From contig CALVJD010000004.1 of assembly GCA_944332005.1 (NCBI GenBank), positions 1-32,244 on the forward strand: 32,244 bases of DNA. Direction: 5' to 3'. Shown here one piece after another: positions 25,593-31,511 of this stretch. This DNA comes from an uncultured Bacilli bacterium. Lineage in GTDB: Bacteria; Bacillota_I; Bacilli_A; RF39; UBA660. The position numbers and the translations under genes are program-made. The notes beneath the pieces were generated by a model. The model worked only from the letters and a program-made list of their open reading frames with translations. It ran no database searches and was not told where the DNA came from. How positions within the stretch are numbered: the first letter of the stretch is position 1; each line of letters starts with the position of its first letter.

Positions 25593-25627
25593 ACTGTGGA
25601 AAAAAAGTTTTCCACAGTTTTCTTTTT
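25593..25627 (+). terminator. Terminator of the TM2/DUF2752 pair
   Basis: ACTGTGGAAAA and TTTTCCACAGT form a perfect 11-bp stem with an AAAG loop and T-rich tail. The arms also read as relaxed DnaA boxes. Confidence 0.88.
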
Positions 25628-25699: not shown

Positions 25700-25728
25700 T
25701 TTCCAATTGTAAAAAATTGTGGTATGAT
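25700..25728 (+). promoter_or_regulatory. Promoter of the ptsHI-EII operon
   Basis: TTTCCA (25700-25705), 17 bases, TATGAT (25723-25728) with extended TGg; an alternative pair TTGTAA/TATAGT (25707-25734) overlaps it. No CcpA cre site is seen. Confidence 0.5.
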
Positions 25729-25771
25729 TATAGTAAATAATAGGTATCATATGCCATAGGGAGGTTAGAGA

Positions 25772-26032
25772 ATGCAAAAAAAAGAAGTAATCGTAAAAAG
25801 TGTGACTGGATTACATGCGAGACCAGGATCTAATCTAGTAGAACTCGCTATGACTTTCTCGTCCGATATCAAATTATTAGTGAACGGTAAAGAAATCAAT
25901 GCCAAAGAAGTGCTAGAAGTGATCATGGGAAATATTAATTGTGGTGATCATGTGACGGTTGTTACCAATGGAACCGATGAAGTAGAAGCATTAAATAAAA
26001 TTGCCGAATATATAGAAACGACGGTGGAATAA
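25772..26032 (+). CDS. ptsH: HPr phosphocarrier protein with Glu at position 46
   Basis: An 86-residue HPr that carries phosphate from enzyme I to the EIIA domain. The active-site His15 is in GLHARPGSN, and the fold length fits without gaps. Aligned with Bacillus HPr (NGK at 38-40 in both), position 46 is Glu (NAKEVLEVIMG) where nearly all HPr proteins have Ser (LKSIMGV). In Firmicutes HPr kinase phosphorylates that Ser to switch on CcpA carbon control, so this HPr should be outside that control or permanently in a Ser-P-like state. It starts the operon with SD GGGAGG; its stop overlaps the EI start by one base (TAATG). Confidence 0.95.
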   Translation: MQKKEVIVKSVTGLHARPGSNLVELAMTFSSDIKLLVNGKEINAKEVLEVIMGNINCGDHVTVVTNGTDEVEALNKIAEYIETTVE

Positions 26033-27765
26033 TGCGATACTTAGGAAATAAAGTTGGAAATGGTTTAGCGATCGGTAAAGTTTTAGTGATTCGTAATCAA
26101 ATACCAGAGATAAAAGAATGGAATCTTGTCGATGTCAAGGAAAAAGAAAATGAAAAAAAACGCGTTTTAGATATTGTAAAGGCCGTTATTAGTGATTATG
26201 AACGTGTGATGAATGAAGCAGAAGAACCAGAAATCAAAGATTTATGTGGTTTTTATCGGACATTGTTAATGTCGGGATCATTGCAAAAGGCTATGACCGA
26301 TAAGATTGAATTAGAAGATTATAATGTTTTCGGTGCCATTAAAGTGGTAATGTCGGAAAAAGAAAAAGAATTATCATTGATCGACAATGAATATTTGCGT
26401 GAACGTAGTAAAGATATTGCCGATGTTACCAATAAATTACTTCGTAAAGGACTAGGTATAAAAGAACTTGATTTAGCGCATTTAACCGAAGATACCATTT
26501 TAGTATCAGAAGAAATTGCACCATCTGTATTGCTTTCCAAACATTTAGAACATGTGAAAGGAATCGTTTCTGAGTTAGGTGGCAAAACTTCTCATGTGGC
26601 GATTTTAGCAAGAACACTTGGTATTCCATCGGTTTTTGGTATTCAAGATATCAGCAATATTTTACAAGATGGCGAACTTATTTTTCTAAATGGAAATCAA
26701 GGTTATTTAGAAACAGAATTGACAGATCGAGATATTGCAGAAGCAAAAGAGAAAATTGTCAAAGCTGCACTTCTCGAACAGAATTTACAAGAGATGATTG
26801 ATAAACCTGCTATCACAAAAGACGGCAAACAGTTTGAAGTGGCCGCCAATGCTGGTGATTTGACCGAGTTAGATAAATTATTAGAAGTAAAAAGTGATGG
26901 AATTGGTTTGTTTCGTACGGAATTCTTATTTTTGAATCGTAGTACCGAACCAAGCGAAGAATATCTTTTTCAAGTTTATAAAACGTTTACCGAAAAGTTA
27001 GAAGGGAAACCACTTATTGTTCGAACGCTCGATATCGGTGGTGATAAAAAGTGTACCTATCTTCACATCCCGGAAGAACAAAATCCTTTTCTAGGATACC
27101 GTGCCATTCGATATTGTTTAGATCATAAAGACTTTTTTAAAGTATCACTGAGAGCTATTTTGAGAGCAAGTCATTATGGAAATGTCAAAATCATGTATCC
27201 GATGATTTCTTCCCTAGAGGAAATAAAAGAAGCAAATCAAATATTAGAAGAAGCAAAACAAGAACTGAGGGATCAAAATATTCTGTTTGATGACCATATT
27301 CAAACCGGAATCATGGTCGAAATTCCATCGGTTGCTTGTATGGCAGATTTACTGATTGATGAAGTTGATTTCTTTAGTATTGGAACCAATGATTTAATTC
27401 AGTATGGACTAGCGGTCGACCGTGTTAATCCGACTGTTAGTAAGCTTTATAATTTCTTTAATCCTGGAGTTGTTCGTCTTATTAAGCATACGATCGATGC
27501 CGGAAAGGGAAGGGAAGCAAAATTTGTTGGTATGTGTGGAGAAATGGCAGCAGACCCATTAGGAATTATTCTTTTAGTAGGATTAGGACTACATGAATTT
27601 AGTGTGAATGTTGCGTCTGTATTAAAAGTGAAAAAACTGATTTCTCTAATCGAAGCAGAAAAGGCAGAAGCTTTGATTGAACCAATTATGAAAATGAAGA
27701 CTGCAGAAGAAATCGAATCATGTTTGAACCAATATGCGAAAGAAGCATATGGAGAATATTATTAA
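26032..27765 (+). CDS. ptsI: PTS enzyme I (PEP-protein phosphotransferase)
   Basis: A 577-residue cytoplasmic enzyme that takes phosphate from PEP and passes it to HPr. The phospho-His188 is in GGKTSHVAILAR; the PEP-binding parts GIGLFRTEFLF (about 290-300), RTLDIGGDK (331-339), the EIPSVA segment and SIGTNDLIQY are all present; the catalytic Cys502 is in GMCGEMAADP. Length matches the family (about 570). Start ATG 26032 lies in the HPr stop codon, the usual coupled ptsHI arrangement. IIB follows after nine bases, so the general and sugar-specific PTS genes share one transcript. Confidence 0.97.
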   Translation: MRYLGNKVGNGLAIGKVLVIRNQIPEIKEWNLVDVKEKENEKKRVLDIVKAVISDYERVMNEAEEPEIKDLCGFYRTLLMSGSLQKAMTDKIELEDYNVFGAIKVVMSEKEKELSLIDNEYLRERSKDIADVTNKLLRKGLGIKELDLAHLTEDTILVSEEIAPSVLLSKHLEHVKGIVSELGGKTSHVAILARTLGIPSVFGIQDISNILQDGELIFLNGNQGYLETELTDRDIAEAKEKIVKAALLEQNLQEMIDKPAITKDGKQFEVAANAGDLTELDKLLEVKSDGIGLFRTEFLFLNRSTEPSEEYLFQVYKTFTEKLEGKPLIVRTLDIGGDKKCTYLHIPEEQNPFLGYRAIRYCLDHKDFFKVSLRAILRASHYGNVKIMYPMISSLEEIKEANQILEEAKQELRDQNILFDDHIQTGIMVEIPSVACMADLLIDEVDFFSIGTNDLIQYGLAVDRVNPTVSKLYNFFNPGVVRLIKHTIDAGKGREAKFVGMCGEMAADPLGIILLVGLGLHEFSVNVASVLKVKKLISLIEAEKAEALIEPIMKMKTAEEIESCLNQYAKEAYGEYY

Positions 27766-27774
27766 GGAGGAATT

Positions 27775-28248
27775 ATGGCAAAAGAAAATAATATTTTATT
27801 AGCTAGAATCGACAATCGTTTGATTCATGGTCAAGTAGTATGTTTGTGGGCAGGATCAGTGGGGGCGAACTTAATCGTGGTAGCTGACGATGATACTGCA
27901 AGCAGTGAAGTAGAACAAAGTATCATGAGGATGGCAGCGTCCTCACTTGGATACGATAGTCGTTTTTTCACAATCAAACATACGATTGATATTATTGATA
28001 AGGCTTCAAGTAGTCAGAAGATTTTACTCATTTGTAAAACTCCTGCGCAACTTAGAGAGATAATTGAAGGAGGTGTAGTGGTCCATAAAGTAAATATTGG
28101 TAATCTTCATTTCCAAGAAGGAAAGAAGAGTATTGCTGATAAGGTCTATGTCGATGATAAAGACTTAGATGATCTTAATTTTATCAAGGAACATGTCGAT
28201 GAAATCTTTATTCAAGACACTCCTGATACCAAAAAAGAGAGTTTTTAA
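27775..28248 (+). CDS. PTS mannose-family IIB component
   Basis: A 157-residue cytoplasmic protein that passes phosphate from IIA to the sugar. The phospho-His18 lies in ARIDNRLIHGQVV, the IIB-Man signature; VADDDTASSEVEQ and the C-terminal VNIGNLHFQEGKKSI fit the family. Sequence flavour is closest to AgaB/SorB-type members, but sugar specificity cannot be read. SD AAGGAGGAA precedes the ATG, nine bases after ptsI. Confidence 0.93.
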   Translation: MAKENNILLARIDNRLIHGQVVCLWAGSVGANLIVVADDDTASSEVEQSIMRMAASSLGYDSRFFTIKHTIDIIDKASSSQKILLICKTPAQLREIIEGGVVVHKVNIGNLHFQEGKKSIADKVYVDDKDLDDLNFIKEHVDEIFIQDTPDTKKESF

Positions 28249-28257
28249 GGAGGAAAT

Positions 28258-29028
28258 ATGGAAATTACTTTATTACAAGGAATTTTAATAACATTACTAG
28301 TTATGATATTAGTAGTTGACCGTCATCTAGAAGTATTTTTCTGGTTTAGACCAATTATTGTATGTCCATTAGTAGGGTTATTATTAAATGATTTAAATAC
28401 CGGCTTAGTTGCTGGTGGTATGGTAGAACTTGCGTTTGCGGGAATTACTGCCGTTGGAGGTGCATCGGTTCCAGAAGCATTGCTGACAAGTGTTATGACA
28501 GTTGTCTTTGCCCATATTACAGGACAATCAGTAGCTGCTTCACTTGCGCTTGCTTATCCATTCGGAGTATTATTACAATTCGTATGGACAATTCGTAACA
28601 CTGCTTTCTCATTCTTTAATGCACCTGCTGAAAAATATGCAGCCAAAGGTGATGTTAAGGGATTAACAAGATTATGTATCTATGGAATTTTAATTACGAT
28701 GGTAGGAGTAGGACTCTTAACATTCTTATCTGTTTACGCAGCTCAAGAACCACTTAAAAATTTAGTAGAATCAATGCCAGATTGGTTAATCCATGGATTC
28801 TCAGTAGCCGGTGGATTATTACCTGCTGTCGGATTTGCAATGTTATTACGTGTAACATTAAAAGCAAAATACATGCCTTACTTATTAGCAGGATTCTTAT
28901 TTGCTACTTATATTAAACCAGATAACGTATTACCAATTGCTATCATGGGACTTGCTTTTGCAATGATTACTTACTACCGTAGTGTAGAAGCACCAAGTAG
29001 TGAAGGAGGTAATGAGAATGGCATCTAA
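28258..29028 (+). CDS. PTS mannose-family IIC component
   Basis: A 256-residue membrane permease subunit with about six to seven hydrophobic segments. MVELAFAGITAVGGASVPE (about 55-73) is the conserved IIC-Man region that helps form the sugar path, and GGLLPAVGFAMLLR another. With IID it forms the transmembrane channel. SD AAGGAGGAAAT precedes the ATG, nine bases after IIB. The SD of IID lies in its last codons and the genes overlap by 11 bases. Confidence 0.93.
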   Translation: MEITLLQGILITLLVMILVVDRHLEVFFWFRPIIVCPLVGLLLNDLNTGLVAGGMVELAFAGITAVGGASVPEALLTSVMTVVFAHITGQSVAASLALAYPFGVLLQFVWTIRNTAFSFFNAPAEKYAAKGDVKGLTRLCIYGILITMVGVGLLTFLSVYAAQEPLKNLVESMPDWLIHGFSVAGGLLPAVGFAMLLRVTLKAKYMPYLLAGFLFATYIKPDNVLPIAIMGLAFAMITYYRSVEAPSSEGGNENGI

Positions 29029-29836
29029 GACTGACAATAAGAAAACACAAAAAAGAGTAATTACTAATCATGATTTAAATGTAGTAGCTTATCGCTCAGT
29101 ATTAAACCAAGCAACATTCAACTATGAAAGAATGCAAAGCCTTGGATTTACAGCATCTATGGGACCTGCATTAAAGAAAATTTATAAGAATGACCCAAAG
29201 ACGTTAAGTACTGTTTTACACGATAATCTAGAATTTATCAATACACATAATACATTATTACCTTATCTACAAGGATTAATGTTATCACTTTATGAAGGTG
29301 GAGAAGATCCTGAAACGGTTAAGAAAATTAAAATTTCTTTATTCGGACCTTTGGCAGGTATTGGTGATGCCTTATTCTGGTTCACATTATTACCAATTAT
29401 GGCTGGTATCTGTGCATCTTTATCAAGTGATGGAAATGTATTAGGACCTATCCTTTTTGCAGTTGTGTTTTTCGCAGCATTCTTGTTACGTTTTCCACTT
29501 GCAAAAATCGGATATAAAACTGGAACATCTGCATTAGATAAATTACAAGAAAATACAAAAAGAATTGGAAATGCCGCATCTATTTTAGGTGTTACGATCT
29601 TAGGTGGATTAATTGCTAGTTATGTATCATTAAATGTGTTGACTGTAATTGATATTGGACATGGTGCTGAAGTGTCACTACAAACTGATTTCTTCGATAA
29701 AATCATGCCAAACTTATTACCATTTGCTTTCACATTCTTAATTTATTTCTTACTTAAGAAGAAAGTAAATCCAACTCTATTAATTTGTATTATCATTGTA
29801 TTAGCAATTTTATGTTCATTCTTAGGAATTTTATAA
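29018..29836 (+). CDS. PTS mannose-family IID component
   Basis: A 272-residue membrane protein, partner of IIC. It has the family marks YERMQSLGFTASMGPALKKI near the N-terminus, ISLFGPLAGIGDALFWFTLLP (about 103-123), and the G-YKTGTSALD motif, then C-terminal hydrophobic segments. I place the start at ATG 29018 because GAAGGAGGT ends seven bases upstream; ATG 29012 or GTG 29000 would overlap the SD. The gene is followed directly by a terminator that begins in its stop codon, though IIA downstream has its own extended -10. Confidence 0.93.
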   Translation: MASKTDNKKTQKRVITNHDLNVVAYRSVLNQATFNYERMQSLGFTASMGPALKKIYKNDPKTLSTVLHDNLEFINTHNTLLPYLQGLMLSLYEGGEDPETVKKIKISLFGPLAGIGDALFWFTLLPIMAGICASLSSDGNVLGPILFAVVFFAAFLLRFPLAKIGYKTGTSALDKLQENTKRIGNAASILGVTILGGLIASYVSLNVLTVIDIGHGAEVSLQTDFFDKIMPNLLPFAFTFLIYFLLKKKVNPTLLICIIIVLAILCSFLGIL

Positions 29837-29860
29837 AAAGCCGTATGGCTTTTTTCTTTT
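29835..29860 (+). terminator. Terminator starting in the IID stop codon
   Basis: AAAAAGCC (beginning with the last two bases of TAA) pairs with GGCTTTTT, GTAT loop, T tract. It lies inside the PTS operon, before IIA, so it may lower IIA expression relative to IIBCD. Confidence 0.8.
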
Positions 29861-29914: not shown

Positions 29915-30340
29915 ATGGATCGAATCGTAATCATGAGTGGACATGCAATGTTCGCAAGTGGAATGTTAAGTTCTTTAGAGATGATTGTTGGTAAAAAAGA
30001 AAATTTTATAGCGATTGATTTTTTGAAAGATATGAGTGATGCCGAATTAGAAGAAAAGATGAGAAAAGAATTGGAACAATATCCCCATTCAGAAGTTTTA
30101 TTCGTATGTGATTTAATGGGAGGAACTCCTTTTAAAATATGTACGAAATTCGCGTTTTCTAATTCCAAGTATGAAGTAGTAACGGGTGTCAATATAGGAG
30201 GACTCATCGATTTATCGATGAAGTTTAATCAGTTTTCTATTTTGGAACTGGCAAATCATCTTGTAGAAGCATCAAAAAAAGCAGTTGTTCAAGTAGAAAA
30301 GGTAAAACCTTCAGAAAAAGTTAGTAATGATGGCATATAA
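29915..30340 (+). CDS. PTS mannose-family IIA component
   Basis: A 141-residue cytoplasmic protein that receives phosphate from HPr on His10 (VIMSGHAMFASG) and gives it to IIB. The C-DLMGGTPF motif (about 65-72) and VTGVNIGGLIDL (about 88-99) complete the EIIA-Man signature. SD AAAGAGGATGAA precedes ATG 29915. Unlike most mannose-type systems, where IIA leads the operon or is fused to IIB, here it is last and separated by a terminator and a likely promoter. Confidence 0.93.
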   Translation: MDRIVIMSGHAMFASGMLSSLEMIVGKKENFIAIDFLKDMSDAELEEKMRKELEQYPHSEVLFVCDLMGGTPFKICTKFAFSNSKYEVVTGVNIGGLIDLSMKFNQFSILELANHLVEASKKAVVQVEKVKPSEKVSNDGI

Positions 30341-30453: not shown

Positions 30454-30475
30454 AAAAAGGAAACGATTGTTTCCT
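30454..30475 (-). terminator. Terminator overlapping the SIS gene stop codon
   Basis: Minus strand: AGGAAAC pairs with GTTTCCT (AATC loop) followed by five T; the TAG stop lends its last two bases to the stem. Confidence 0.8.
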
Positions 30476-31511
30476 AAAAAGTATTGGTTCTTCCCTTTAA
30501 TACCGGAACGTGATCTAAATAAGTTCCTTTTACAAAAGACATTTCAGAAGCAAGTAACTGCATAACGATTACGCCACTAAAGAAACCATATAAATCATTT
30601 TCTACATTTACAATAATGGCATGATCAGCTTCTTTAGCAAGATCAGAATCGTTGGTAATTAAATAACGAGGAGCTTTTGTATCTTTTAAATATTCCATTA
30701 CTTTCTTAATATCAGCGTTGGTTTTACGATCGAAAGCAAATAAGAAGGCTGGCGTTTCTTCACTCGTACAAGCAAGAGGACCATGACAGAATTCACTTGC
30801 AGGGAAAGAAATGACAGGGTATAGGCAAGTTTCCATCAATTTTAAAGAAAATTCTTTCGCAATGGAAAATCCCATTCCACGAGCAATTGTAACTGCTTTA
30901 CCAATTTTCGTTAAATCATGTGCCCATGGTTTTACTTCTTCATAGTGAAGAAGACCCTCTTCGATACTTGCTAAATATTGATCAGTATCTAAATATAGTT
31001 CTTCTTTTTTGCTTAAGTAATGTGCCAACATTGTTAAAATATACAAAGTAGAAGTAAATCCTTTCGTAGCAGCACCACTAAGCGTTTCACCAATTTCATT
31101 CAAAATAATGTGCTGTGCTGCTTCAGCTACAATAGAATCAGGATTGTTGGTAATCGCTAATGTATAAGCACCTTGCTCATTTGCCTTCTTTAAGACTGTA
31201 CTTACATCATATCCCTTTCCTGATTGTGAAATGGCAATTACTAACGAGTGTGATAAATCGATTGTCTCATCATATACCGTAAATACCGAAGGATTGGCAA
31301 GACTGACTGGTATATGACAATTTAGCTCCAATAAATACTGGGCATAAATACCTGCATGTAATGAGGTACCTCTAGCTACAATCATGATGTGCTGTGGTTG
31401 GAATGCTAAAATCTCATTCGCAATTTCGGGAATCACAACCTTGTTTTTTTCACAACAATGACGTAGTGCGTCGATTTCACGAATTTCTTTTAACATATTC
31501 GTTTCGTTCAT
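30474..31511 (-). CDS. Double-SIS sugar-phosphate isomerase/deaminase-like enzyme
   Basis: A 345-residue cytoplasmic protein with two SIS domains. Domain 1: MIVARGTSLHAG (43-53) and AISQSGKGYD (93-102), the phosphosugar-binding serines. Domain 2: IARGMGFSIAKEFSLKLMET (209-228) and PASEFCHGPLA (237-247), like the isomerase half of GlmS. No glutaminase domain, so it is in the NagB-II / FrlB / AgaS group: amino-sugar-phosphate deaminase or fructosamine-phosphate deglycase. Facing a mannose-type PTS, it probably handles the imported phosphorylated sugar. SD GGAGG precedes ATG 31511. Confidence 0.85.
   Translation of the reverse strand: MNETNMLKEIREIDALRHCCEKNKVVIPEIANEILAFQPQHIMIVARGTSLHAGIYAQYLLELNCHIPVSLANPSVFTVYDETIDLSHSLVIAISQSGKGYDVSTVLKKANEQGAYTLAITNNPDSIVAEAAQHIILNEIGETLSGAATKGFTSTLYILTMLAHYLSKKEELYLDTDQYLASIEEGLLHYEEVKPWAHDLTKIGKAVTIARGMGFSIAKEFSLKLMETCLYPVISFPASEFCHGPLACTSEETPAFLFAFDRKTNADIKKVMEYLKDTKAPRYLITNDSDLAKEADHAIIVNVENDLYGFFSGVIVMQLLASEMSFVKGTYLDHVPVLKGRTNTF

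Follow-up and report, generated by a model that had tools for sequence, protein, structure and literature searches.

The HPr protein encoded at positions 25772 to 26032 of the window, a 32,244-nucleotide stretch of DNA from an uncultured Bacilli bacterium, carries a glutamate in place of Ser46, the target residue of the kinase HprK, and is encoded next to an enzyme I (EI) whose HPr-facing loop has lost its acidic residues. We consider it likely, judging from the sequences, that this protein is a working phosphocarrier dedicated to a single PTS operon of the mannose family, that it operates without HprK and CcpA, and that the change in the EI loop allows Glu46 to be tolerated. Phosphate would then follow the ordinary phosphotransfer route from PEP via EI to His15 of HPr, and further via EIIA and EIIB to the sugar.

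An HPr protein with glutamate at position 46

The gene and the codons of the two residues in question are located as follows:

25772 to 26032, plus strand: ptsH, HPr with His15 and Glu46 (profile matches, alignment, predicted structure)
25814 to 25816, plus strand: CAT codon of His15, the EI phosphorylation site (alignment with B. subtilis HPr)
25907 to 25909, plus strand: GAA codon of Glu46, which takes the place of the HprK target Ser46 and follows Lys45 (alignment)

The ptsH reading frame starts with ATG, is provided with the ribosome-binding site AGGGAGG on its 5' side and encodes a protein of 86 amino acids. Its membership in the HPr phosphocarrier family is documented by profile scores (TIGR01003 of NCBIfam: 75.4 bits, E-value 2.6e-21, cut-off 47.9; PF00381: 79.9 bits, cut-off 23), by its fold, and by the presence of His15 and Arg17 in the motif GLHARPGS; the protein also has Gly19 and, at positions 54 to 59, the NINCGD motif of its clade. 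The original prediction of a glutamate at position 46 next to an intact His15 is borne out by an alignment with the HPr of B. subtilis that is free of gaps up to residue 60, and by an AlphaFold2 model derived from the window sequence and its relatives (mean pLDDT of 94). In this model, Glu46 directly precedes residue 47 and caps helix 2, which comprises residues 47 to 52. The model superimposes onto solved HPr structures with an rmsd of 0.6 to 1.1 Å across about 80 residues, and these structures include the engineered Ser46Asp variants 1sph and 1opd. As the model is confident, fits the solved HPrs and positions Glu46 just before helix 2, we conclude that a serine is missing from the structural counterpart of position 46, contrary to what would have refuted the original prediction; nor does the predicted structure contain one anywhere in helix 2.

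With His15 present and Ser46 missing, the protein has neither of the two hallmarks of Crh (His15 absent, Ser46 present). Like all other members of its clade, which share its Glu46, it also lacks the Ser46 of an HprK-regulated HPr. The suggestion that the HPr encoded beside EI may be the main one in the cell stands, as no second HPr was found in the MAG to which the window belongs as one entire contig (1.135 Mb, 83 contigs, 90% complete); the gene at 25772 to 26032 is the sole HPr gene in this assembly.

HprK and CcpA in the genomes of the lineage

Searches for HprK in the window's genome gave no match to either PF07475 or TIGR00679, and none of the 193 genomes of the order contains a TIGR00679 match above the cut-off. 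In a side-by-side run of TIGR00679 within the class Bacilli, matches above the cut-off were obtained in 12 of 12 Ser46 genomes versus none of the five Glu46 genomes; the search is imperfect in that the B. subtilis positive control gave no match, and it does work for the class Bacilli since all 12 internal controls were recovered. Weak TIGR00679 matches in the order (17 to 29 bits versus a cut-off of 240) were rejected as HprK; they cover the model only partially, and most of them lie inside frames too long for this enzyme.

The CcpA model TIGR01481, which also catches LacI-type repressors of other kinds, found several genes in three Ser46 genomes, but had no match in any of the five PTS-bearing Glu46 genomes. 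For these five, the genome search proposed along with the original prediction has yielded no HprK match above the family cut-off and no CcpA match. The genomes behind these absences are draft MAGs, 90 to 96% complete, and the absences are repeated across the lineage; those in the window's own 90%-complete MAG lean on its relatives.

In a lineage without HPr kinase and CcpA, residue 46 would no longer serve as a phospho-switch. The view that this HPr transports sugars but escapes the Ser46 switch holds in its first part, since the protein most likely passes phosphate to a sugar transporter without control via Ser46. The term escape is wrong, because the switch itself is absent, with HprK in 0/193 genomes of the order and CcpA/LacI-type matches in 0/5 PTS-bearing genomes.

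Glu46 is fixed in an Onthousia-like clade

Scanning one genome per species (84,980 species) recovered 24 full-length relatives and one partial relative, all with Glu46; these and the other clade counts refer to sequences and not to independent species, because several records appear to be contigs already in the set. The records are those of uncultured Bacilli, uncultured Tenericutes, an uncultured bacterium, Candidatus Onthousia excrementipullorum and Candidatus Onthousia faecipullorum. Throughout the 25 clade HPr genes of this Candidatus Onthousia-like, RF39-type lineage (window included), position 46 is invariably glutamate, its codon is always GAA, and it is accompanied by Glu49 without exception. 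This invariance persists despite pS values of up to 0.72 and with pN/pS ratios of about 0.08 to 0.30 (eight pairs), which argues that Glu46 is maintained and did not arise through chance or error. Within the order, HPr was found in five of the 193 genomes, each time with Glu46, and this rarity agrees with the published loss of the PTS from most environmental Tenericutes (PMC7301438).

In a sample of 108 rows from the class Bacilli, which takes in reference sequences of E. coli and B. subtilis, the window and one partial row (L081), Ser46 occurs in 99 rows, among them HPr-like proteins without His15. Glu46 is confined to the Onthousia-like clade, with the exception of one row (L048, minus strand) that we rejected as spurious; Lys46 (L083) and Arg46 (L046) were each encountered once, in other families. 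Ser46 is likewise present in all 16 HPr domains that were added from five phyla (Bacillota, Fusobacteriota, Pseudomonadota, Mycoplasmatota and that of one archaeon), a set that includes NPr, FruB, DhaM, haloarchaeal HPr and HPr fused to EI.

These data bear on the idea that residue 46 simply drifted after the loss of HprK, so that its glutamate would be a neutral relic to which EI did not co-adapt. Such a scenario would be in keeping with the missing HprK and CcpA and with the general divergence of the clade HPr and EI proteins, but we regard it as unlikely in view of the strict retention of Glu46 and Glu49 in 25 genes that have diverged substantially at synonymous sites, the fixation of Ser46 in HPr relatives beyond kinase control (NPr, FruB, DhaM, haloarchaeal HPr), and the strong harm that a Ser46Asp exchange reportedly does to transfer from EI (PMC5320558).

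Several other HPr-like proteins came to our attention in this survey. The Arg46 HPr (L046, genome G324) adjoins an EI with Asp84 and is a possible second natural departure from Ser46, represented by a single case. In family f18 of the class Bacilli (L073-L080), HPr-like proteins possess Thr at position 15 and an intact Ser46; G220, the only f18 genome tested, contains HprK and yielded no further HPr match, so that a regulation-only, Crh-like protein is apparently the sole family member there. In G308 (L230) and G303 (L232), a second HPr with a HARPG motif and Ser46 adjoins a second, divergent EI that branches separately in the EI tree, possibly a further dedicated HPr/EI pair.

The HPr-docking loop of enzyme I has lost its acidic residues

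The ptsI gene and the loop in question are located as follows:

26032 to 27765, plus strand: ptsI, enzyme I of 577 amino acids, with GGKTSH (phosphorylated His) and MCGEMA intact and the HPr-binding loop neutralised
26272 to 26280, plus strand: EI Ser81-Gly82-Ser83, corresponding to Asp82-Glu83-Glu84 of E. coli EI, in the loop facing HPr residues 27, 45, 46 and 49 (alignment; contacts after PMC3724859)

In the EI-HPr complex of E. coli and a model based on it, Glu84 of EI bonds Lys45, Ser46 and Lys49 of HPr, and the same interface comprises the contacts Asp82-Lys27, Glu74-Lys24 and Glu67/68-Arg17 (PMC3724859). HPr phosphorylated at Ser46 is a poor substrate of EI (PMC12445079), and for the Ser46Asp variant of E. 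coli HPr, an approximately 2000-fold drop in phosphorylation by EI is cited in PMC5320558. Against this background, the EI partners of the Glu46 HPrs stand out: at least one acidic residue is present in loop 81-84 (E. coli numbering) of all 75 other EIs versus none of the 25 clade EIs, and position 82 is Asp in 74/75 of the former versus Ser in 25/25 of the latter. At position 84, the clade has Ser (Ala in one member). This position alone failed as a discriminator, since it is acidic in 46 of the 75 other EIs and is occupied by Ala, Val, Leu or Met in many partners of Ser46 HPrs; the whole 81-84 loop separates the two groups better. Position 76, which is His in 63/75 other EIs, is Tyr in the entire clade versus one of the 75. 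The clade EIs also lack an acid at position 74, their acids at 67/68 as well as Arg17 of HPr are largely retained, and the clade HPrs combine Glu46 and Glu49 with the lack of a basic residue at positions 24 and 27.

The EI surface predicted to dock onto HPr residues 45 to 49 has lost its acids, with Asp82 and Glu84 of the E. coli enzyme replaced by two serines (one Ala at 84). As this surface has shed its acidic residues, the charge repulsion that cripples Ser46Asp and Ser46-P pairs should disappear, and Glu46 would be tolerated. Given the reported cost of a Ser46Asp exchange for the interaction of E. coli HPr with EI (PMC5320558), our data are best explained by an EI that has co-adapted, which suggests that the HPr and EI proteins have been re-tuned together. 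The clade EIs are monophyletic (support 100/100) on a long stem branch of 2.09 changes per column, along with which other interface positions (74 and 76) were altered too. Because the paired change arose once on the tree, a single event that does not amount to statistically independent support for compensation, the compensation of Glu46 by EI is inferred. Phosphorylation of His15 presumably proceeds at a normal rate.

The lost charge of the EI loop also speaks to the proposal, put forward as an alternative in the original prediction, that the Glu46 HPr permanently mimics the Ser-P form and constitutively represses genes or inhibits sugar permeases. Glu or Asp at position 46 does resemble P-Ser, and a Ser46Asp exchange causes permanent repression in B. 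subtilis (PMC4574613). Mimicry acting via CcpA is unlikely, however, as this protein is missing from the five genomes searched with its model and as EI has shed negative charge precisely at the loop facing residue 46, which points to preserved phosphotransfer; we judge a permanent Ser-P mimic to be highly improbable. It is also very unlikely that, in this lineage without HprK and CcpA, the Glu46 HPr is a locked P-Ser-like effector, one that goes on inhibiting permeases for sugars or further targets and that retains its phosphocarrier role through the re-tuned EI, the two forming an insulated pair with altered interface charge.

A single PTS operon of the mannose family

The ptsH and ptsI genes are part of an operon with the order HPr-EI-IIB-IIC-IID-IIA that is kept in relatives. 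Its remaining elements and its convergent neighbour are:

25593 to 25618, plus strand: intrinsic-terminator-like hairpin that parts the operon from the upstream gene (sequence scan)
25700 to 25734, plus strand: promoter-like hexamers 5' of ptsH, candidate only (scan count not above that of shuffles)
27775 to 28248, plus strand: EIIB, mannose family, galactosamine type (NF007288), His18 in RLIHGQ (profile match, residue check)
28258 to 29028, plus strand: EIIC, mannose family, the sole PF03609 match in the genome (profile search)
29000 to 29836, plus strand: EIID, mannose family (the profile match begins at residue 11-21; the true start may be downstream)
29915 to 30340, plus strand: EIIA, mannose family, AgaF-like, His10 present (profile match, residue check)
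30474 to 31511, minus strand: protein with a SIS domain that resembles NagB-II and the GlmS isomerase; its gene is convergent to the operon and kept as a neighbour in relatives

All components of a mannose-family PTS (IIA, IIB, IIC and IID) are present, including the phosphorylatable His residues in IIA and IIB. Each of the five PTS-bearing genomes possesses exactly one mannose-family EIIC (PF03609) and no PF02378 EIIC, and no second transporter was found in these genomes with the two EIIC searches. This lineage-wide single-transporter operon, like the change in EI, had been missed by the original prediction. The SIS-domain protein probably functions in the processing of amino-sugar phosphates, and its conserved convergent gene suggests that the substrate of the PTS may be an amino sugar.

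A further terminator-like hairpin is found at positions 29835 to 29854 of the window, between the EIID and EIIA genes, and EIIA may therefore be partly or separately transcribed. Directly 5' of ptsH, most Onthousia-like loci (L121-L143) contain a strongly conserved stretch resembling TATGCTATnATTACTTTATAAGATAAA, a candidate promoter or operator; the window's own upstream region is different. In the relative G119, a 698-codon open frame (L116:10976-13069, minus strand) with no Pfam match is situated between the EI and EIIB genes of the operon.

The occurrence of a PTS in just five of 193 genomes of the order, together with the long stem branch of EI, could also reflect acquisition of the whole operon from an unsampled lineage in which Glu46 and the EI change had arisen earlier, for some other reason. 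No donor was found, as all NINCGD-type Glu46 HPrs retrieved by the scan of 84,980 species come from uncultured MAG records of the same sort, and we view such an acquisition as possible, if rather doubtful. It concerns the origin of the operon and is compatible with a present function of the Glu46 HPr as a phosphocarrier served by a co-adapted EI.

Significance and comparison with known systems

Even HPr relatives beyond kinase control retain Ser46, and an acid at this position is reported to nearly abolish transfer from EI in E. coli HPr (PMC5320558). A naturally fixed acid at position 46, combined with an EI without acids in its contact loop, consequently offers a direct test of whether Ser46 serves docking of EI and not just HprK. 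The Glu46 HPr/EI pair might also be a starting point for HPr/EI pairs free of cross-talk. Moreover, the PTS as a whole is reduced here to a single operon, lacks catabolite-control proteins and occurs in gut bacteria whose relatives mostly have no PTS. HPr, EI and the transporter belong to known families; the variant is the natural, fixed Glu46 together with a neutralised EI loop, for which a search of titles and abstracts, reaching few subscription journals, found no description.

The HPr of Bacillus and Enterococcus (ptsH) shares with the window HPr its fold, His15, Arg17, Lys45 and the gene order HPr-EI; it differs in that the window HPr has Glu46 for Ser46, Glu49 for Gly49 and GN for LG at positions 53 to 54, and has no HprK and CcpA at its side. 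Bacillus Crh, the closest solved sequence by profile (E-value of about 1e-18), is its reverse, as Crh lacks His15 and keeps Ser46. The HPr of E. coli works without HprK, yet it retains Ser46 and meets an EI with Glu84 and Asp82, whereas the clade possesses Glu46 and has lost the EI acids. The engineered Ser46Asp HPrs (PDB 1sph, 1opd) also present an acid at position 46 of the HPr fold; they are man-made and impaired with their EI, while the acid of the window HPr, Glu46, is natural as well as fixed, and its partner EI has lost the contact-loop acids. The mannose-family Aga PTS for GalNAc/galactosamine has the same IIB, IIC, IID and IIA components as the window operon, which, unlike the Aga system, joins the transporter with an HPr and an EI of its own.
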